Origin: Planctomycetota bacterium
GTDB lineage: Bacteria; Planctomycetota; Planctomycetia; Gemmatales; Gemmataceae
NCBI GenBank assembly: GCA_016872595.1
Contig: VGZJ01000028.1
Coordinates: 1 to 35,036 of the forward strand
DNA: 35,036 bases
Direction of reading: 5' to 3'
Under the pieces are notes generated by a model. It worked only from the letters and a program-made list of their open reading frames with translations. It was not told the DNA's origin and did no database searches. Positions within the stretch are counted from its first letter, which is position 1. Every line of letters begins with the position of its first letter. The position numbers were made by a program, and so were the translations under genes. This document shows, piece after piece, positions 3,982 to 33,726 of the stretch.

Positions 3982-5414
3982 CGACGACGCGCATCGACAC
4001 CCCGCAGGCCCGGTGCAAGGTCGGGTTCGCCCGCGCTGAAGTCACACCGCCGGTGGGCATTTACCACCGCATGTGGGGCGCGGCCCTGCACGACCGCGCC
4101 ACCGGCGTTCACAAGCCGCTGACCGCGACCGCGCTCTACCTCGAAGCGCTCGACGGCGGCGCACGGCAACTCGTCCTCGGCCTCGATCACTGCATTCTGG
4201 ACGCGCGCGAGATCGACGCGATCCGCGCCCGCGTCGTGGGCGTGGGCGCGAGTGACATCGCGGTGTCACTCTCGCACACGCACGGTTCGGGGTGGATGTC
4301 GCGCACCCGCGCGAACCTGCCCGGCGGCGACCTGATCGGCCAGTACCTGAACGAGTTGATCGAGGTGTGCGTTGCACTCGCGCACGAGGCCGCGGCGTCC
4401 GCGCGCCCGGCGGCGCTGGTGTTCGGCACCGCGCGCTGCGCGCTCGCGCGGCACCGCGACTTCTACGACGAAGGCTCGAAGCAGTTCGTGTGCGGGTTCC
4501 ACCCGGACGGCGCGGCCGACGACACCGTTCTTGTCGCGAGGGCCGTGGCCGATGACACCGGCGCGACGCTCGGCACCGTCGTCAACTACGCTTGTCATCC
4601 GACGACGCTGGCGTGGGCGAACACACTCATCAGCCCGGATTACGTTGGCGCGATGCGCGAGGTGATCGAGGCCCACACCACTGCGCCGTGCCTGTTCCTG
4701 CAAGGCGCGTCGGGCGATCTCGGCCCGCAGGACGGCTACGTCGGGGATACCGCGGTCGCCGACCGCAACGGCCGGCAGCTCGGCTTCGCGGCGCTGTCCG
4801 CGCTCGAAGCACTACCCGCGCCCGGGACGCACTTCGCGTTCGCCGGCCCCGTCGTGTCCGGCGCGATCCTCGGAAGCTGGGCGCACGCCCCCGCGAGCGC
4901 CGACGAGCGCGCCCGGTTCGCGACGTGGACCGCGGCCGAAGTCACGATCCCCCTTCCCTACCGGCTCGACCTACCCACGGCGGACGCGACCCGCGCGGAG
5001 TTGGCGAAGTGGGAGGCCGAAGAAGCGACCGCCCGCGCCGCCAACGACGCGGCCCGCGTGGCCGAGTGCCGCGCGCGGGCCGAACAGATGACGCGCCAAC
5101 TCACGCGCCTCGCGGCGATGCCCACCGGCCCCGCGTACCCGTACCGCGTCGCGCTCGTGCGCCTCGGCGGTTCGGTGTGGGTGTTCTGCCCCGGCGAGTT
5201 GTATCAGGTCTTCCAAACCACACTGCGCGCGCGGTTCCCGCGCGTGGCAATCGTGATCGCAACGGTAACGAACGACTGGCAACCGGGCTACCTGCCCGCC
5301 GCCGGCAGCTACGGCTACGGCATCTACCAAGAGGTCATCGCCGCCGTGGCCCCCGGCGCGCTGGAAACCGTGATCGAGTGCGTGAGTCGCGAAGTGAAAG
5401 CGCTGCTGGGGTGA
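3978..5414 (+). CDS. Neutral/alkaline ceramidase N-terminal-domain-like hydrolase
   Basis: This 478-residue protein starts at the ATG overlapping the MFS stop (ATGA, 3978-3981). The frame stays open far upstream, but only as an antisense-like shadow of the transporter. Motifs recall neutral ceramidases: KVGFARAEVTPPVG near the N-terminus, SHTHGSG (H100/H102) and NYACHPTT (H207), which are candidate zinc ligands, and LQGASGDLGP at 241-250. In true ceramidases the last motif is GDVSP with a catalytic Ser; here the position is G249, so amide hydrolysis by that mechanism is doubtful. There is no obvious signal peptide, unlike secreted ceramidases. Planctomycetes encode many such distant relatives. 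Its place at the end of a sugar-acid operon suggests hydrolysis of a conjugated substrate in the cytoplasm, but this is inference. Confidence 0.78.
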   Translation: MTTTRIDTPQARCKVGFARAEVTPPVGIYHRMWGAALHDRATGVHKPLTATALYLEALDGGARQLVLGLDHCILDAREIDAIRARVVGVGASDIAVSLSHTHGSGWMSRTRANLPGGDLIGQYLNELIEVCVALAHEAAASARPAALVFGTARCALARHRDFYDEGSKQFVCGFHPDGAADDTVLVARAVADDTGATLGTVVNYACHPTTLAWANTLISPDYVGAMREVIEAHTTAPCLFLQGASGDLGPQDGYVGDTAVADRNGRQLGFAALSALEALPAPGTHFAFAGPVVSGAILGSWAHAPASADERARFATWTAAEVTIPLPYRLDLPTADATRAELAKWEAEEATARAANDAARVAECRARAEQMTRQLTRLAAMPTGPAYPYRVALVRLGGSVWVFCPGELYQVFQTTLRARFPRVAIVIATVTNDWQPGYLPAAGSYGYGIYQEVIAAVAPGALETVIECVSREVKALLG

Positions 5415-5416
5415 AG

Positions 5417-5536
5417 TCTCTCTGTGGAGCGCGGGCGTCCCGCCTGCCGCTGCGCAAGTCGTCTCGCTGCACGAGAAGCGCAACGGACGCAGCATCCGCG
5501 AAGCAGCGGACGGGACGCCCGCGCTCCACAGAGAGA
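5417..5536. repeat. Perfect 26-bp inverted repeat between convergent genes
   Basis: Arms 5417-5442 and 5511-5536 are perfectly complementary over 26 nt. The 68-nt interior can pair further (GCxGCTGC-type segments). Each arm contains its own small palindrome, GCGGG-CGT-CCCGC type. The element fills the gap between the ceramidase-like stop (5414) and the DUF1501 stop (5539) and could terminate transcription from both sides, although there is no U-tract. Confidence 0.88.
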
Positions 5537-5538
5537 AG

Positions 5539-6825
5539 TCACATCACTTCTTTGATCGGCGTGGGGTCGTCGAGCAGGTACACGGGCCTCCCGCTGTGGT
5601 CGGGTAGCGTGGTTTGCGGGTCGATACCGAGGTGCCGGTAGATTGTGGCGAGTACGTTCTGCGGCGTGTACGGGATGCCGACGGGGCGCTCGCCCTTCGC
5701 GTTGGTCGCACCCACCGCTTGGCCGGTCGTGAAGCCGCCGCCGGCGAGGAACGCGAACCCCGATTGCGGCCAGTGGTCGCGGCCCCCGGTCGTGCCGCTC
5801 TGGGTGCCGACCCGCGGCGTGCGGCCCATCTCGCCCCAGATCACAACCGCCACGTCGTCGGACAGGCCGCGGTCGTGGAGGTCTGTAAGCAGCGCGTACA
5901 CGCTGCGGTCGTAGGCCGGCAGGATCGACTTCAGGCACTCGAACACGTGGTCGTGGTGGTCCCACTGGCCGTTGCACTTCTGCGGCACGCCGTGGTTCTG
6001 CGGGGTGATCGTCACCACGGGCACGCCGGCCTCGACCAGCCGCCGCGCGGTTATGTACTCGGTGTTCTTGCCGTACTGCTCGCGCAGCTTGGCCGGCTCC
6101 TTCGACAGGTCGAAGGCGTCGCGGGCCACGTCCGTTGTCATCATCTCGAGCGCCTGACTGGTGAAGCTGTCCATGCTGGCGCGCTGGCCCTTCGGGTCGT
6201 CGAAGTCCCGCTTCACCGCGTCGAACGTCTTGAGCAGTTCGCGGCGCTCGCCGAGCTGCGCGAGGGTGATCGCCTTCGAGCGGCCGAGCGACATGGCCTT
6301 CTCGCCGGGAATGTACGCCTCGTGCGCCTTGCCCAGAAAGCCGGGGTGCCCGACGTGGTTGGCATCGCCGAGGTACACATACGGCGGCAGCGGGGCGCGA
6401 ACGCCGGCGTCGGCGCGCAGCTTACTCACGACGGACCCGAACGCCGGCCGGTTGCCGCGCAGGAACCCGCTGTACAGTTCCGGCGCGGTGTGCCCCTGTT
6501 GCTCGAACTTCATGTTCCGAATGATGGCGAACTTGTCCGCGATTTTGGCGTGCAGCGGCAGGTGCTCGCTGATATGGAGGCCGGTCACGTTCGTTTGGAT
6601 CGGCTTGAACTCACCGCGGTACTCGGCCGGGGCGTCGGGCTTCAGGTCGTACATGTCCATGTGCGACGGCCCGCCGTTGAGGTAGACCATGATGACGCTT
6701 TTGCCGCGAGTCCGCGGCGCGGGCTGCGCCGCGCGGGCGCGCAGCAGGTCCGACAGCGTCAACCCGCCGACAGCGAGCCCGCCCGCGGTGAGGACCGACC
6801 GGCGCGAGAGGTGGGGCGTGTTCAT
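5539..6825 (-). CDS. DUF1501 family protein with Tat signal
   Basis: This is a 428-residue exported protein. The N-terminus has LSRRSVLTAGGLAVGGLTLS, a twin-arginine signal with hydrophobic core, then an ARAAQPAP cleavage region, so a folded, probably metal-bearing protein is exported. The body shows the DUF1501 hallmarks: VYLNGGPSHMDMYDLKPDAP, QTNVTGLHISEHLP, the GHTAPELYSG region and a C-terminal TGGRDHWPQSGFAFLAGGG. DUF1501 belongs to the alkaline-phosphatase/sulfatase-like superfamily; the biochemical role is unknown. It lies downstream of a second DUF1501 gene and a DUF1549/DUF1553 gene on the same strand, the classic planctomycete pairing. It is separated from the next gene by a perfect 27-bp hairpin. 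Confidence 0.92.
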   Translation of the reverse strand: MNTPHLSRRSVLTAGGLAVGGLTLSDLLRARAAQPAPRTRGKSVIMVYLNGGPSHMDMYDLKPDAPAEYRGEFKPIQTNVTGLHISEHLPLHAKIADKFAIIRNMKFEQQGHTAPELYSGFLRGNRPAFGSVVSKLRADAGVRAPLPPYVYLGDANHVGHPGFLGKAHEAYIPGEKAMSLGRSKAITLAQLGERRELLKTFDAVKRDFDDPKGQRASMDSFTSQALEMMTTDVARDAFDLSKEPAKLREQYGKNTEYITARRLVEAGVPVVTITPQNHGVPQKCNGQWDHHDHVFECLKSILPAYDRSVYALLTDLHDRGLSDDVAVVIWGEMGRTPRVGTQSGTTGGRDHWPQSGFAFLAGGGFTTGQAVGATNAKGERPVGIPYTPQNVLATIYRHLGIDPQTTLPDHSGRPVYLLDDPTPIKEVM

Positions 6826-6850: not shown

Positions 6851-6910
6851 GTTAGCCGCGAGCCACCGGCGAGCGCGAACGTCCGCGCTCGCCGGTGGCT
6901 CGCGGCTAAC
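6851..6910. repeat. Perfect 27-bp hairpin between two DUF1501 genes
   Basis: Arms 6851-6877 and 6884-6910 are exactly complementary over 27 nt with a 6-nt loop (AACGTC). It starts with GTTAGCCGCGAGCC. A single arm of the same family with three mismatches occurs at 8268-8291. There is no poly-U on either side, so a simple intrinsic terminator is not obvious. This is the longest uninterrupted stem in the window. Confidence 0.92.
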
Positions 6911-20932: not shown

Positions 20933-22201
20933 ATGCGTATTGCTCTGCTCATCACACTCACACTCACGCCCACACTCCGCGGCGCGGACTGGCCGCACTG
21001 GCGCGGGCCGAACCGCACCGGCGTCACCGACGAAGCTTCTGGTTGGGACGGCACCTCGTGGCTCGCGGACAAACCCGCGTGGACCGCGCGCGTCGGCGAG
21101 GGCGCGAGTAGCCCGGTTGTGGTGGGCGAACGCGTCTTTTTCCTCGGCTACTCGGACGGCAAGGACACGCTGTTGTGTCTGAGCGCGATAGACGGCAAGC
21201 AACTCTGGGCGCAGAGCTACAAGTGCCCGCGCTACGGCCGCCACCGCGCCGGCGACGAAGGGCTGTATTCGGGGCCGTCGTCCACACCGGAGTACGAACC
21301 CGCGACCGGCTTCCTCTACACGCTCAGCACCGACGGCGACCTCATCTGCTGGGACACGAACGCCGACGGCAAGCGGCTTTGGAGCAAGAATCTTTACGAC
21401 GACTACAAGGCCGCGCGCCGGCCGAAGCTCACGCCGGCCCCCCAGCGCGACTACGGCTACACGTCGTCCCCGCTCGTCCACAAGGATTGGCTGTTGGTCG
21501 AAGTCGGCAGCACGTCAAGCGGGAGCGTGATCGCCTTCGACAAGAAGACCGGGAAGGAAGTGTGGGCGTCCGAACTGAAGGACGAAGCCGGGCACACCGG
21601 CGGCATGTCGCCGATGACGGTCGAAGGAGTGCCGTGCGTCGCGGTGCTCACGCAGCGCAACCTCGCGGTGATCCGGCTCGACGCCGGCAACACCGGCAAG
21701 ACGGTCGCCTCGTTCCCGTGGGTGACGGACTTCGCCAACACCATCGCCGGCCCCGCGGTCCACAGCGACAGCGTGGTGATCGCGGCCGACTACAACCACC
21801 GCGCGATGGTCCGCGTGCGCTTCACCTTGAAAGAAGCAACGGAAGTGTGGCGCGCGAAGTTCGCGTCGAAGGTCTGCACGCCGGTGATCCACGACGGGTG
21901 CGTGTACGTCGCGTGGCAGCGCGTCCGCTGCATCGACTTCGCCACCGGCAAGCTGAAATGGGAGGGCGGCGCAGTGGGCGACCCCGGCTCGTGCGTAGTC
22001 ACGAGCGACGGCCGGCTCGTGGTGTACGGCCTGAGCGGGAAGCTCGCGCTGATCGAGGGCGCGAAGCAGTCGCCCGGTGCGTACAAGGAACTCGCCGTAA
22101 AGGACAAGCTGTTCAAAACGCAGGCGTGGCCGCACGTCGCGCTCGCCGCCGGCCGCTACTACTGCCGCGACCGCGAGGGGAACGTGATGGTGTTCAAGTA
22201 G
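20933..22201 (+). CDS. Secreted PQQ-like beta-propeller protein
   Basis: This 422-residue exported protein has a signal peptide (MRIALLITLTLTPTLRGA), followed by DWPHWRGPNRTGVT, the N-terminal signature of planctomycete outer-membrane/PQQ-like propellers. Repeats of about 45 residues carry blade motifs such as LLCLSAIDGKQLWAQS, IAFDKKTGKEVWASEL, CIDFATGKLKWEGG (A-x-D-x-x-T-G-K-x-x-W). The fold is a seven- or eight-bladed propeller; true PQQ binding is not implied because no dehydrogenase motifs are seen. It probably acts in the periplasm. It ends at 22201 (TAG), where an inverted repeat begins. Confidence 0.9.
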   Translation: MRIALLITLTLTPTLRGADWPHWRGPNRTGVTDEASGWDGTSWLADKPAWTARVGEGASSPVVVGERVFFLGYSDGKDTLLCLSAIDGKQLWAQSYKCPRYGRHRAGDEGLYSGPSSTPEYEPATGFLYTLSTDGDLICWDTNADGKRLWSKNLYDDYKAARRPKLTPAPQRDYGYTSSPLVHKDWLLVEVGSTSSGSVIAFDKKTGKEVWASELKDEAGHTGGMSPMTVEGVPCVAVLTQRNLAVIRLDAGNTGKTVASFPWVTDFANTIAGPAVHSDSVVIAADYNHRAMVRVRFTLKEATEVWRAKFASKVCTPVIHDGCVYVAWQRVRCIDFATGKLKWEGGAVGDPGSCVVTSDGRLVVYGLSGKLALIEGAKQSPGAYKELAVKDKLFKTQAWPHVALAAGRYYCRDREGNVMVFK

Positions 22202-22274
22202 GGTGGGACAAGGCTCTGCGCCGTCCCACCATCGCGCCGGAAGAAGGTGGGACGGCGCAAAGCCTTGTCTCACC
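22202..22274. repeat. 29-nt inverted repeat filling a convergent gene junction
   Basis: Arms 22202-22230 and 22246-22274 match at 27 of 29 positions with a 15-nt loop. Each arm alone is a hairpin: GGTGGGAC pairs with GTCCCACC within the left arm. The pair exactly fills the gap between the stop codons of the propeller gene (22201) and ygfZ (22275). REPIN-like, and a candidate bidirectional terminator. Confidence 0.87.
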
Positions 22275-23243
22275 TTACATCGCCGCCACTTCCGCCACCG
22301 CGCCGGCGGCGTCCACCTTTGTGCCGGGTTCGTGGTGCTTCCACTTCAGGTACGCGAGCGCGATCGGGCCGAAGCGCGGCGAGTGACAGCTCGATGTCAC
22401 AACGCCCACCTCCGCGCCGTCGCGGAGCAGCTTCGTGCCGGGCGCGGGCGGGTCGCCCTGCACGGTCAGGCGCGCGAACACGCGGTTGACGTGCCCGGCC
22501 CGATCGCGGGCCATCACGATTGGCTCTTGCCCCAAATAGCAGCCCTTCGAGTAACTCACCGCGCGCGCTGCGAACCCCACTTCCATCACGAAGCGGTTGT
22601 CGTCGATGTCCTTCCCGAACACAGGCGTTCCGGCCTCGATGCGCAGAATCTCGAAGGCGTCCGCGCCGCCCGGCACCGCGCCCGCGGCGGTCAGCATCCG
22701 GCGCCCGCCGTCGGCCACATCGGAGCGGCACACGAGGTCGAAGCCCGGCACGCCGAGCTGGTCGCGCCGCCGGATGCTGCACGTCGCATCGCGCCCGAAG
22801 GTGCGCTCCATGTGCGCGAACGGCGGCAGGTCCGGCACCGCCGCGCCGAGTGCCGCGGTCAGCACATCGGCGGCATTCGGCCCGGCCAAGTGCAGCTGCG
22901 CGAAGTCCGCCGTGCGGTCGGCGATTTCGACCTGTTCCGAGATGATGTAGCGGTCGAGGTACTGAACCAGTTCCGTGTTGCGGCCCGGCGTCGTCTCGAC
23001 CCACATCGCGTGGCGCTTGTCGCCGAGGAGGACGTGGTAGACCCACGTCTGGAACTTCACCTTCGCGCGGCTGTCGCAGAAGTACGCCTCGCACCCGCCG
23101 CCGAGCGGGAGGTTCTTGGTGTCGTTCGTGCTCATGTTGCCGAGGAACATCGGAGCGTCCGACCCGGTCAGCACCAGCTTCGCCGCGCCGGACGTATCGA
23201 ACAGCGCCGCGGTCGTAGTAGCGGCGGCGTAATCGGGAGTCAT
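22275..23243 (-). CDS. ygfZ: Folate-binding protein YgfZ (Fe-S cluster maintenance)
   Basis: This 322-residue member of the GcvT/YgfZ family carries the diagnostic YgfZ motif KGCYLGQE at residues 233-240. YgfZ binds tetrahydrofolate and assists Fe-S enzymes such as MiaB. It starts MTPDYAAATTTAALFDTSGA, with the FDxSG-like folate-binding N-terminus and LTGSDAPMFLGNMSTND, and LQLHLAGPNAADVL-type GcvT segments follow. Length is near the usual 320-330 aa. It lies downstream of the LarA-like gene on the same strand, separated by an ACAGGAT-type inverted repeat. Confidence 0.88.
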   Translation of the reverse strand: MTPDYAAATTTAALFDTSGAAKLVLTGSDAPMFLGNMSTNDTKNLPLGGGCEAYFCDSRAKVKFQTWVYHVLLGDKRHAMWVETTPGRNTELVQYLDRYIISEQVEIADRTADFAQLHLAGPNAADVLTAALGAAVPDLPPFAHMERTFGRDATCSIRRRDQLGVPGFDLVCRSDVADGGRRMLTAAGAVPGGADAFEILRIEAGTPVFGKDIDDNRFVMEVGFAARAVSYSKGCYLGQEPIVMARDRAGHVNRVFARLTVQGDPPAPGTKLLRDGAEVGVVTSSCHSPRFGPIALAYLKWKHHEPGTKVDAAGAVAEVAAM

Positions 23244-28890: not shown

Positions 28891-28963
28891 GGCGAACGGC
28901 CGGCGTGAGCCGGCCGGTGAGGGCGCGAACCTCTCACCTGCCGGCTCACGCCGGCCGTTCGCC
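28891..28963. repeat. 31-nt inverted repeat ending at a Shine-Dalgarno
   Basis: Arms 28891-28921 and 28933-28963 match at 30 of 31 positions, 11-nt loop. The left arm starts two nt after the rmlB stop; the right arm is followed directly by GGAGG (28964-28968) of the next gene. Each arm can fold alone (GGCCGGC-GTGA-GCCGGCC). Same placement as the repeat at 1724-1817. Confidence 0.88.
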
Positions 28964-29703: not shown

Positions 29704-29806
29704 GTAGGTGCCGCGAGCCGAGCGGCACCGCGATACCCGCCCGGTTGCGACTCCTGTTTGTGCTTCACCCATGCCATCGCGGTGCCGCTCGGCTCGTGGC
29801 ACCTAC
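29704..29806. repeat. REPIN-like 31-nt inverted repeat sharing a stop codon
   Basis: Arms 29704-29734 and 29776-29806 match at 30 of 31 positions with a 41-nt spacer. Each begins (outer side) with GTAG and contains a perfect sub-hairpin (GGTGCCGC...GCGGCACC). The left arm starts right after the RmlA-like stop; the right arm includes the TAG stop of the kinase (29803-29805). Two inverted GTAG-led palindromes are the exact layout of a REPIN. Confidence 0.88.
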
Positions 29807-32800
29807 TTCTGAGCCGCCAGCGGCAGCTGAGGGCCGATGTCGGCAGCGGGGCGCACGTCGGCGCGCCAGCGCTTCACGGCCCCGTCGCGGCCCACTGTTA
29901 CCAGCGCGGTTCCGTCGGCGCTGAACGCCACGTCCAGCACGCGGTCGGCGTGCCCGCTCAGCGTCAGGCGCTCTTGCCCGGCGACCGGGTCCCAGAGGAT
30001 CACGGCCCGGTCGTCGCCACCGGAGGCGAGGGCGCGCGCGTCCGGGCTGAAGGCCAGCGCGTGGACCGCGGCCGTGTGACCGGGCAGGTCGCGCTGGTAC
30101 GCGAGCCGCCCGCCGGTGTCCACGGTCCACAACTGAATCAGCCCGCTGGCGTCGCCGGTCGCGAGCGCGCCGCCGATCCGGTCGAAGGCCAGCGCCTCGA
30201 CGTTCGGGCGCGCGCCGCCCGCGCCGGGCGCTTCGCTCAGCACCTTCCCGTCGAGCGACACGATCCGCACGCCGGGGCCGGCGGCGACCGCGAGCCACGG
30301 TTGCGTGGGGTGGAACGCCAGCGCGCGCGCGCCCGCGGCGCTAAGCACCACGGCCCCGCCGCGCGCGTCGACGGGTTGCTCGCTGGACGCCGGGAGCGCG
30401 TGCAGGTCGTAGGCGCGCACGGCGTCGGGGTCCGCGGCGGCGAGCCAGCGCCCCGACGGGTCGAGGGCGAGGGCGTGGGCCGGGGCCGGGGTGCGCACGA
30501 ACACGCCGCGCGCGAGGGTGCGACCGCGCGGCCCGCCGGGCCGGGCCGGGCCGGGCTGCCAGATGATCAGCCCGCCGTCCACCGCGAGAACGAACGTGCG
30601 CCCGTCCGCGGACACGGCCGCCGCGCGGGCCGCGCCCTTCAAGGTCGGCAAGCTGTACGGCATGGGCGTCAGGCTCAGCGGCCCCGGCGGACCGGGCGGC
30701 GCGGCGCGCGTGGGAGGTACGTAGTCCGCGACCAGCACGCGCACGCGCCCGGTGTCGTCGGCCACGAAGAACACCGTGCCCGCCCCGCCGATCGCGACCG
30801 CGGTCAGCCCCTGCGCGGTGGCCTTGCCGAACGGGTCGCGCGCGAACCGCAGCGCATCGTCCGGTTCGTGCGTGCGGGCGCTCGTCTGCCACACCACCGC
30901 CGCGCCGTCCATCCCACCGGAAACGAGCGTGCGCCGGTCGGGGGCGAACGCCAGCGCGTTCACCTGCTGGGCGTGGCCGTGCAGCACGCCGCGCTCGCGT
31001 CCGTCGTCCGCGTCCCACAGCCGCACGGTCTTGTCGAACCCGGCGCTGGCGAGCAGTTGGCCGTCGTCGCTGAACGTGAGGGCGAAGATGGACTTCGTGT
31101 GCCCGAAGAAGCGGCGGTCGCGCCACGTCTGGGTGTTGAACACGCGAACGACGGGCGGCGTGCCGTTGTTCGCGGTCGCGACCGTTTGGCCGTCCGGGGA
31201 GATGGCGACGGCGCGCACGGCGTCGGCGTGCGCGGGCAGCACGCGGACCAGCTTCGCCCCGTCCCCGGTCCACACCCTCGGGTACACATCCGCCCCGCCG
31301 GACACCACCAGCTTGCCGGTGTCGGCGACCGCGAGCGCGTACACGCCGCCGGGGTGCGCGCTCACCTCGCGCAGTTGGACGACGCGCCGGCCGTCGGGCG
31401 ACTGCGCGGCGCGGGTCAGCGCGACCGCGCCGGCCCCGGCCCCGCCGAACAGCGCGAGGTCCGGCCCCGCGGCGCGCCAGCCCGTGAGGTCCCACCAGCG
31501 CAGGAAGCCGTCCGCGCCGCCGGTCACGAGCGCGCGGCCGTCCGGGGCGAACGTCAGGCACGTGACCGCGCCCGCGTGCGCGTCCGGCACCGTTACCGCC
31601 GGGGCGACCGTGGGCACCTTCAGCAGCGGGCTGACGATGGGCCGGAGCCACGGCACCGCGTTCATCGTCCACCGCGCGGTGTCCAACACCTCGACCGGCA
31701 GCACCCAGAGGCGCACGGTCCCGTCCGCGCCGGCCGAGGCGACCACGCTCCCGTCGGCGCTGAACGCCAGCGCGTGAACGGTCCCGGTGTGGCCGTCGAG
31801 CGTCACCCACGTGCGGTTGGTGCGCGGGTCCCAGACGCGGATCTGGCCGGCGTCGCCGGCGGTGGCGACGAACGTGCCCGCGGGCGAGTACGCGACCGCG
31901 CGGAGCGGGTCGTTGGCCCCGTGCCCGGTGTACAGCAGGTCGTCGCGCTGGCACAGGCGGCGCAGGTAGTGCCACGTGAAGTCGCGCAAGTTCTTGGGGC
32001 ACCGGGCCTCGTCTTCGAGCAGGGCCGCGGCGCGCTGCGGGTCCCGCTCGCACAGGATCGCGACCTGCGCCAGTTGGAGCGCGTACGCGGCCCGGCGCGT
32101 GCGCTCGGCCTCGCGCGCGAGGTCGTCGGCCTGCTTCACCGCGTCGAGCCGGCGTTTCTCGTTCTCGGCCGCGAGGTCTTCCGCCCGCTTCTTCTGGCCC
32201 TCGGCACGCTCGCGCTCGCGCTGGGCCTCGATCCGCTCGTGCTCCTTCGCGGCCACCGCGTCGCGCACCCGGAAGTACGCCACCGACAGCACCGACACCA
32301 GCGCGACCGTCGCGACAACGGTGGTGGCGAGCAGCACCGCCAGCGCCGGGTGCCGCCGCGCCCACTTCACCCCGCGGCCCCACGCCGACAGCGGGCGGGC
32401 CTTGATCGGCTCGCCGTTGATGAACCGGCGCAGGTCGTCGGCCAGCGCCGCGGCGCTCGCGTACCGCTTGGCCGCGGACTTCGACAGGCACTTCAGGCAG
32501 ATCGTTTCGAGGTCGCGCGGCACCAGCGGGTGCAGGCGCTTGGGCGGAACCGGGTCGTCGTGGAGCACCTGCAATACGGTGTCCAGCGGGGTCTCGCCGC
32601 GGAACGGCGGGCGGCCGGTGAGCAGTTCGTACAGGATCGCCCCGAGCGCGTACACGTCCACGAGCGGGCCGACGTCGTGGGTCTTGCCGCTGGCCTGTTC
32701 GGGCGCGATGTAGCTGGGCGTGCCCATCACCGCGCCGGTGCGCGTGCCGCCCCCGCCCCCGTCGAGTGTTTCGTCGAGGCGCTTCGCCAGCCCGAAGTCG

Positions 32801-33669
32801 GTGATCTTGGGATCGAAGGTCAGTGCGCGTAAGGTCGCGGACGAGTCACGCGCGGCGCGCGAAGCATCAGGGGGCTTTCGCCCCGCACTTGCCAGCAACA
32901 CGTTCCCCGGCTTGAGGTCGCGGTGGACGATACCGGCGTCGTGAGCGAACTGGACCGTGCGCGCCAGCGCCTCGACCAGTTCGGCGGCGCGCCGCGCGTC
33001 CCACGGGTCGCCGCTAAGGTTCTGTGCGAGGCTCCCGCCGTCCACGAACTCCAGCGCCAGATACGGGTGCCCGTTCGCCTCACCGATGTCGAAGATTTGG
33101 ACGATGTTGGGGTTCTGAAGGGCCGCGACCGCCTCGGCCTCGCGCTTGAACCGCTCGCGCTCGGCCGGCCCCGCGTGGACCCCGCTCAGGATCATCTTCA
33201 GCGCGACGAGCCGGTTCAGGCTCAGTTGCCGCGCCTTGTACACGACGCCCATGCCGCCGCGCCCGACCTCGTGCATGATCAGGTAGCCGGGCACCAGCGG
33301 CGGCGCGAAGTCGGCCGATTCCCCGGTCCCGAACGGCACGACGCTGCTGGCCGAATCGCCGGGCGCACCCGAGCCGGACGCGGATTCCGGCAACAGCACG
33401 ACGAGCGAATCGAACGACGGGTCCGGGGTGTCGGCGCCGGGGGGGGCCGCGGGCGGCGGTAGGAACTCGCGCGTGACGGCATGGTCGGCGTCGCGCGGGA
33501 CCAAGATGGACTGCGTCGCGCCCTGCCCGTCAACGGCCGCGCTCGCGGCGACCACGAACACCGGGCCGCCGACGAGCGTGGTGTCGCCGCACACCGGGCA
33601 GGCGGTGGCCGCGGCCCCGTCGGGCGGGTTCCACGTGTGGCCGAACGAACACCGATAGCCGCCGGACAT
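29803..33669 (-). CDS. Membrane Ser/Thr protein kinase with zinc ribbon and C-terminal WD40 propellers
   Basis: This protein has 1288 residues. The start at 33669 (MSGGYRCSFGHTW) is preceded by GAGG and by a promoter at 33699-33726; a TTG further upstream falls inside that promoter. Domains: treble-clef-like zinc site C7/H11/C24/C27; flexible Pro/Ser region 45-125; kinase about 129-415 with GRGGMGVVY, K158, HRDLKPGN (D251), DFG (D291), YIAPEQ; TM about 441-466; Arg/Glu coiled coil about 467-530; then WD40 repeats from about 580 to the end (blades such as AVHALAFSPDARALASGGDD, AVILWDP), probably two propellers. This is the planctomycete PknB-WD40 architecture, with the propeller outside the cytoplasm. 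A 23-residue insertion (S261-L283) sits between HRDLKPGNVLLA and TFDPKITDFG and corresponds to a DNA element. The target is unknown. Confidence 0.93.
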   Translation of the reverse strand: MSGGYRCSFGHTWNPPDGAAATACPVCGDTTLVGGPVFVVAASAAVDGQGATQSILVPRDADHAVTREFLPPPAAPPGADTPDPSFDSLVVLLPESASGSGAPGDSASSVVPFGTGESADFAPPLVPGYLIMHEVGRGGMGVVYKARQLSLNRLVALKMILSGVHAGPAERERFKREAEAVAALQNPNIVQIFDIGEANGHPYLALEFVDGGSLAQNLSGDPWDARRAAELVEALARTVQFAHDAGIVHRDLKPGNVLLASAGRKPPDASRAARDSSATLRALTFDPKITDFGLAKRLDETLDGGGGGTRTGAVMGTPSYIAPEQASGKTHDVGPLVDVYALGAILYELLTGRPPFRGETPLDTVLQVLHDDPVPPKRLHPLVPRDLETICLKCLSKSAAKRYASAAALADDLRRFINGEPIKARPLSAWGRGVKWARRHPALAVLLATTVVATVALVSVLSVAYFRVRDAVAAKEHERIEAQRERERAEGQKKRAEDLAAENEKRRLDAVKQADDLAREAERTRRAAYALQLAQVAILCERDPQRAAALLEDEARCPKNLRDFTWHYLRRLCQRDDLLYTGHGANDPLRAVAYSPAGTFVATAGDAGQIRVWDPRTNRTWVTLDGHTGTVHALAFSADGSVVASAGADGTVRLWVLPVEVLDTARWTMNAVPWLRPIVSPLLKVPTVAPAVTVPDAHAGAVTCLTFAPDGRALVTGGADGFLRWWDLTGWRAAGPDLALFGGAGAGAVALTRAAQSPDGRRVVQLREVSAHPGGVYALAVADTGKLVVSGGADVYPRVWTGDGAKLVRVLPAHADAVRAVAISPDGQTVATANNGTPPVVRVFNTQTWRDRRFFGHTKSIFALTFSDDGQLLASAGFDKTVRLWDADDGRERGVLHGHAQQVNALAFAPDRRTLVSGGMDGAAVVWQTSARTHEPDDALRFARDPFGKATAQGLTAVAIGGAGTVFFVADDTGRVRVLVADYVPPTRAAPPGPPGPLSLTPMPYSLPTLKGAARAAAVSADGRTFVLAVDGGLIIWQPGPARPGGPRGRTLARGVFVRTPAPAHALALDPSGRWLAAADPDAVRAYDLHALPASSEQPVDARGGAVVLSAAGARALAFHPTQPWLAVAAGPGVRIVSLDGKVLSEAPGAGGARPNVEALAFDRIGGALATGDASGLIQLWTVDTGGRLAYQRDLPGHTAAVHALAFSPDARALASGGDDRAVILWDPVAGQERLTLSGHADRVLDVAFSADGTALVTVGRDGAVKRWRADVRPAADIGPQLPLAAQK
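32822..32889. repeat. 68-nt element with inverted ends inserted in the kinase catalytic loop
   Basis: The ends AGTGCG (32822-32827) and CGCACT (32884-32889) are inverted copies. An internal GGGGCTTTCGCCCC hairpin spans 32870-32884. Removing the encoded S261-L283 restores the usual kinase spacing NVLLxxDxxPKITDFG. Length and frame keep the reading frame open. Confidence 0.6.
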
Positions 33670-33698
33670 GCTGGGCCTCGTGCGCGAGCGTACCCCCA

Positions 33699-33726
33699 AT
33701 TATCCCGGTGCGCGCCCGCGATTCAA
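33699..33726 (-). promoter_or_regulatory. Sigma70-like promoter for the WD40 kinase
   Basis: On the minus strand, -35 TTGAAT (33726-33721) and -10 GATAAT (33704-33699) are 16 nt apart, matching consensus at four and five of six positions. The start point near 33692 gives a 23-nt leader to the ATG at 33669. This supports that start over the upstream TTG. Confidence 0.5.

Follow-up and report, generated by a model that had tools for sequence, protein, structure and literature searches.

In-frame copies of a small dispersed palindromic repeat in a planctomycete genome, with a probable decayed copy in a pre-existing loop of a protein kinase

How a long stretch of extra residues came to lie between the catalytic loop and the DFG motif of a planctomycete protein kinase, and whether mobile DNA was its source, is the question raised by this locus. 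The window, i.e. the whole stretch of DNA that was analysed (35,036 nucleotides), forms a single contig in a draft assembly of 6.8 Mb, and the genome has a GC content of about 68%. The kinase was recognised by Pfam matches to Pkinase and WD40 repeats, and its best named relatives are for the most part planctomycetes, Gemmatales included, which points to a planctomycete of the Gemmataceae type. Its likelier start, judged from the sequence comparison, is the ATG at 33667-33669, because orthologue matches begin at residues 3-10 of the longest form. The features of the gene that are relevant here are as follows.

29803..33699, minus strand: Ser/Thr protein kinase with WD40 repeats (longest form 1298 aa, TTG start)
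32902..32925, minus strand: catalytic loop HRDLKPGN (coordinates derived from a 365-aa construct, window:32281-33375)
32812..32892, minus strand: variable β7-β8 linker of 27 residues, ASAGRKPPDASRAARDSSATLRALTFD, defined by orthologue comparison and an AlphaFold2 model
32791..32799, minus strand: DFG motif of the kinase (coordinates derived)

The linker separates HRDLKPGNVLL from PKITDFG. The first-pass annotation had described the region as a mobile-looking element of 68 nt (32822-32889) with AGTGCG/CGCACT ends and an internal hairpin, read in frame as 23 extra residues at a position where kinases rarely tolerate insertions. A linker of 27 residues is indeed present. Modelled with AlphaFold2, the kinase domain (mean pLDDT 81.5) has an intact fold and matches PknB structures with TM scores to the target of about 0.82-0.90. 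The linker is placed between strands 159-161 and 189-191, i.e. in the β7-β8 turn, and pLDDT falls below 50 for most of residues 166-185, so that the loop is predicted to be disordered.

Part of the linker DNA belongs to a dispersed palindromic repeat of this genome, which is referred to as family A (GGCGAGCGGGGGGCGTAAGCCCCCTG / CAGGGGGCTTACGCCCCCCGCTCGCC). The 15-nt hairpin core GGGGGCTTWCGCCCC, i.e. GGGGGCTT(A/T)CGCCCC, occurs in 62 exact copies in the genome, and 75 copies are found when any loop base is allowed (GGGGGCTTNCGCCCC); the reversed controls of both searches gave 0. The genome-wide search proposed for the element has thus returned many DNA copies. Family A copies align to CAGGGGGCTTACGCCCCCCGCTCGCC over 27-30 nt, and GAA or AT often stands in front of them. 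Of the 68 units examined, 23 consist of a divergently oriented pair of halves, and the others are mostly single halves of about 27-30 nt. In the 23 pairs, which measure 69-117 nt, the spacers comprise 11-60 nt of unrelated sequence and the identical flanks do not exceed 0-2 nt, i.e. no target duplication was observed; a classical MITE with target duplication was rejected on this basis. Within the genus, the core is present in 36-155 copies in six genomes (G000, G001, G004, G015, G016 and G018) and in 16 copies in G003, and the remaining genomes have nearly none. At least one exact core was found in 44 of 297 genomes of the class, mostly of the same family. The window also contains six further strong inverted repeats (1724-1817, 5411-5542, 6851-6910, 22198-22278, 28891-28963 and 29704-29806) with arms of 30-45 nt that are 86-97% complementary. 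Those at 28891-28963 and 1724-1817 appear to be sisters of family A (GGCGTGAGCC, GGCGGGCTTACGCCGC), and those at 22198-22278 and 29704-29806 start with GTAG, like GTAG REPs.

Within the kinase linker the repeat can be delimited as follows.

32864..32893, no strand assigned: diverged family A half-copy, 26/30 identical to the consensus GGCGAGCGGGGGGCGTAAGCCCCCTGATGC (gene strand)
32870..32884, plus strand: hairpin core GGGGGCTTTCGCCCC, an exact member of the dispersed repeat
32818..32863, no strand assigned: rest of the linker, which takes in most of the leftward portion of the proposed 68 nt

The identity of 26/30 was equalled by none of 1000 dinucleotide shuffles, and the internal hairpin reported earlier proved to be the exact core. 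The left part behaves differently: 817 of 1000 shuffles matched the second half of family A equally well as 32818-32863 did. The AGTGCG/CGCACT ends are present, but as a 6-bp match only, and the self-complementarity between the right and left arms was equalled by 629 of 1000 shuffles. Therefore, the 68 nt as one element was rejected, since its second half does not rise above shuffles; what is secure is a half of 30 nt, which reaches 4 nt past the end originally proposed. The whole linker folds moderately better than its shuffles (z about -2.3). There are two readings of 32818-32863: a second half eroded past recognition, or ancestral linker. An eroded pair in the window kinase is plausible in view of the nearest orthologue (L050, 82% identity), in which a near-intact inverted family A pair, SGGRKPPVRDGEDERTGGLHPPLAV, with a stem of 15 and a folding z of -6.7, lies one codon from the same position.

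Comparison with other kinases determines how the insertion site should be regarded. All 20 orthologous or near-orthologous kinases compared have 25-53 residues at this spot, and between most of them the linkers share no sequence similarity; the distant planctomycete kinases L062-L064, in contrast, have the canonical short turn. Removal of the extra residues thus restores normal spacing with respect to canonical kinases such as PknB, but not with respect to the protein's own orthologues. The claim that the site rarely tolerates insertions does not hold in this clade, where every orthologue has a long and variable linker. Such linkers, unrelated in sequence and predicted to be disordered, indicate that the site is ancestrally permissive in the kinase clade and that the linker predates the family A copy. 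Most outgroup linkers have no inverted repeat in the folding comparison, and outgroup linkers of equal length occur without a palindrome; the idea that family A created the linker is therefore unsupported. Orthologous linkers also have LRA-type residues similar to the left part of the window linker. Many DNA copies exist and protein-level similarity among the orthologous linkers is lacking, so an insertion conserved as protein and without other DNA copies is not what is seen here. The orthologue of G016 (L055, G016:C1:5933380-5937308) contains several in-frame TGA codons and two open frames, and it is possibly a pseudogene or affected by assembly errors.

The same comparison bears on the view that a fast-evolving, low-complexity loop has become GC-rich and self-complementary by slippage or template switching, the match to the family being a convergence of G/C runs. 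The variation of the linker in all orthologues, the scarcity of inverted repeats in outgroup linkers and the high genomic GC content are in accordance with it. The identity to a defined 30-nt consensus, unmatched by dinucleotide shuffles, the specificity of the 15-nt core, of which the reversed control yielded none, and the near-perfect pair in the sister orthologue L050 speak against it, and we consider this disfavoured reading highly improbable.

The kinase is not the only gene that contains family A. Most copies are intergenic and a minority lie in coding DNA, where at least 14 units are in frame inside genes of the genome; a copy was called in frame from the codon-usage score on both sides of the unit together with an open frame through it. 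Hosts confirmed by Pfam are a prenyl synthase (L010), a sigma-54 NtrC-type response regulator (L079), Mfd (L107), in which the copy lies inside the CarD/TRCF RID match, and SMC (L089), which has two sites, one of them inside the hinge match. Further hosts were assigned by reading the sequence: UvrA with two in-frame sites (L090), a GlnE-like protein (L091), a dihydrolipoamide acyltransferase linker (L095), a MobA-like protein (L017) and an ECF sigma factor (L088); L099 and L082 are additional in-frame cases. Unrelated conserved proteins thus have the family peptide ASGGRKPP or GGLRPPLA in common. The frames are used unevenly (GGRKPP 8, GGLRPP 3, GAYAP 2, GGVSPL 1, GLTPP 0 and the TAA-stop frame 0). 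Moreover, about 9 further copies contribute to Sec or Tat signal peptides as GGLRPPLA or QGAYAPRS, and family A halves may supply the cleavage region of these peptides. Copies in signal peptides were noted in L027, L034, L075, L077, L080, L084, L098 and L005, directly before the mature protein.

These observations are also relevant to a selected function of the kinase insert, for instance as a regulatory linker, a docking site or an mRNA hairpin. In its favour, a linker of at least 25 residues is kept in all orthologues of the clade. Its sequence is unrelated between orthologues and predicted to be disordered, however, and the same peptide recurs in unrelated proteins and in signal peptides; a selected function is improbable for these reasons, though less so than slippage.

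REPINs are inverted REP pairs mobilised by RAYT (TnpA-REP). Family A resembles them in its divergent halves, found as pairs in 23 of 68 units, in the short variable spacer and in the absence of target duplication. It differs in that no RAYT gene flanked by family A was found in the genome or in the genus loci examined. The source genome has 5 Y1_Tnp genes, and none of the 33 Y1_Tnp loci examined in this genome and the genus had family A within up to 1.5 kb on each side; an association with RAYT was rejected on these grounds. Two RAYT-like Y1_Tnp genes of the source genome (L036 and L037) appear to be flanked by different inverted repeats of their own, with peptides repeated on either side.

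In Rickettsia, the RPE are dispersed palindromes, some of which lie in frame in unrelated conserved genes and each encode a recognisable peptide (PMC2229807, PMC10969869). The in-frame copies of family A likewise encode a common peptide in unrelated conserved genes, and the proposal that small elements of this genome lie within coding sequences and are read through in frame, in the RPE fashion, is borne out, as is the search for the peptide in other proteins. As a sequence family, however, family A is set apart from RPE by its planctomycete host, its GC-rich sequence and its unit size (halves of about 27-30 nt or pairs of 69-117 nt, against 105-146 nt for RPE), and by the occupation of one orthologous loop by several unrelated families. 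Intragenic GTAG/CGTC REPs have been described in Opitutus terrae, Thioalkalivibrio, R. conorii and others as short hairpins, occurring as singles and inverted dimers, in uvrA and other repair genes; a dimer corresponds to 20-30 codons, and in recB of two Xanthomonas species nearly the same site is occupied by different REPs (PMC3733652). Family A hairpins are also single or in inverted dimers and also occur in uvrA, but the consensus and the listed copies have neither tag beside the hairpin. The in-frame colonisation is thus RPE-like and already described for Rickettsia and Opitutus.

Taken together, the data are very probably explained by the spread of a small non-autonomous palindromic repeat, the coding copies of which survive in disordered loops, the kinase copy having decayed in a loop that already existed. 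According to this explanation, short hairpin repeats would spread in the genome singly or as divergent, REPIN-like pairs, and the absence of target duplication together with the divergent pairs suggests insertion by transposition of single-stranded hairpins. Coding copies would persist only where the frame is open and the loop is disordered and solvent-exposed, a survival that would reflect purifying selection, and they would be translated, as read, into Pro/Arg-rich linkers (ASGGRKPP, GGLRPPLA) that are assumed to be functionally neutral. The kinase copy has probably landed in a permissive loop that was already there, the β7-β8 turn of a kinase family specific to this clade, and decayed afterwards. 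Against this explanation count the single recognisable half in the copy of the window, the failure to find a precise empty site for the kinase, the 33 Y1_Tnp loci, none of which has family A nearby, and the non-random choice of the genes compared below.

The same loops were followed across the genus in orthologues of the prenyl synthase and Mfd, with the kinase as the third gene compared. These three genes were picked for their family A copies in this genome, which means that their loops do not sample loops at random and that the rate is not a general one; that other families occupy the same loops does not depend on this choice. The prenyl synthase loop contains families A, B, C or D, and the Mfd loop families A, B, C and others, depending on the species. 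The kinase linkers of L045 and L054 carry family B and that of L044 family C. Family B consists of inverted heptamers CAGTGGG/CCCACTG, family C of GCGGAAC/GTTCCGC, and family D of CCCCCTCCCTTCTTAGGG and its complement. In families B and C tandem heptamers are set as inverted pairs, an architecture unlike that of family A. Both are dispersed repeats, family B with 42, 58 and 53 matches in G000, G015 and G007, and family C with 55 in G003, 26 in G016 and 0 in G000; several of these matches fall inside the compared loops themselves. In many orthologues the loop DNA folds far better than its shuffles; the mean z was -5.2 in the prenyl synthase, -3.4 in the first Mfd set and -1.3 in the kinase, against an average of about 0 in flanking coding windows. 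With a wider search pattern, 10 of 18 Mfd loops had z < -2. In the 104 kb of the three genes, 36 inverted repeats with perfect arms of at least 11 nt were found, and 16 of them start in loop zones, which by our own estimate cover about 11% of the bases.

Such a distribution may also arise if an older palindrome offers the next family a landing site or a partner for recombination, so that the loop is a true hotspot and not just tolerant. All three loops compared hold different families in different species. Strong inverted repeats also occur in a second Mfd loop, about 615-700 nt upstream of the one with HGIARFRG, in six of the 18 genomes (L248, L251, L254, L258, L263 and L265); both observations are in line with such serial replacement. 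The same pattern would be expected from plain survival in tolerant loops, however, and in several orthologues the loop is present without any palindrome; we regard serial replacement as rather unlikely, though clearly less so than a selected function. In the source genome the second Mfd loop appears to read PTPRPPSLQGGGLNSPLPEGKGAGG, a repeat family other than A.

That unrelated families have repeatedly refilled the same loops across a genus looks new, as no description of it was found in the literature searched, which was mostly outside subscription journals. The peptides GGLRPPLA, ASGGRKPP and QGAYAPRS were absent from that literature, and family A was not found described in the Gemmata and planctomycete repeat literature; subscription papers lay outside the scope of both searches, and these absences are therefore weak evidence.

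As a tentative and somewhat doubtful extension, certain loops of conserved proteins in this genus might be long-lived landing pads, successively overwritten by the active family of each lineage, with an existing palindrome possibly attracting the next. If so, the kinase, the prenyl synthase and Mfd would keep a rapidly exchanged segment encoded by DNA repeats. In-frame insertion of palindromic repeats, for which Rickettsia and a scatter of intragenic REPs have been the main examples, is extended here to a planctomycete lineage and to several families at once. With different families in one orthologous loop, nature has in effect tested how core proteins tolerate insertions, and the loop set allows a direct test of whether repeats choose their sites or only survive there. 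It likewise allows one to ask whether new linkers of proteins and segments of signal peptides regularly come from selfish DNA.
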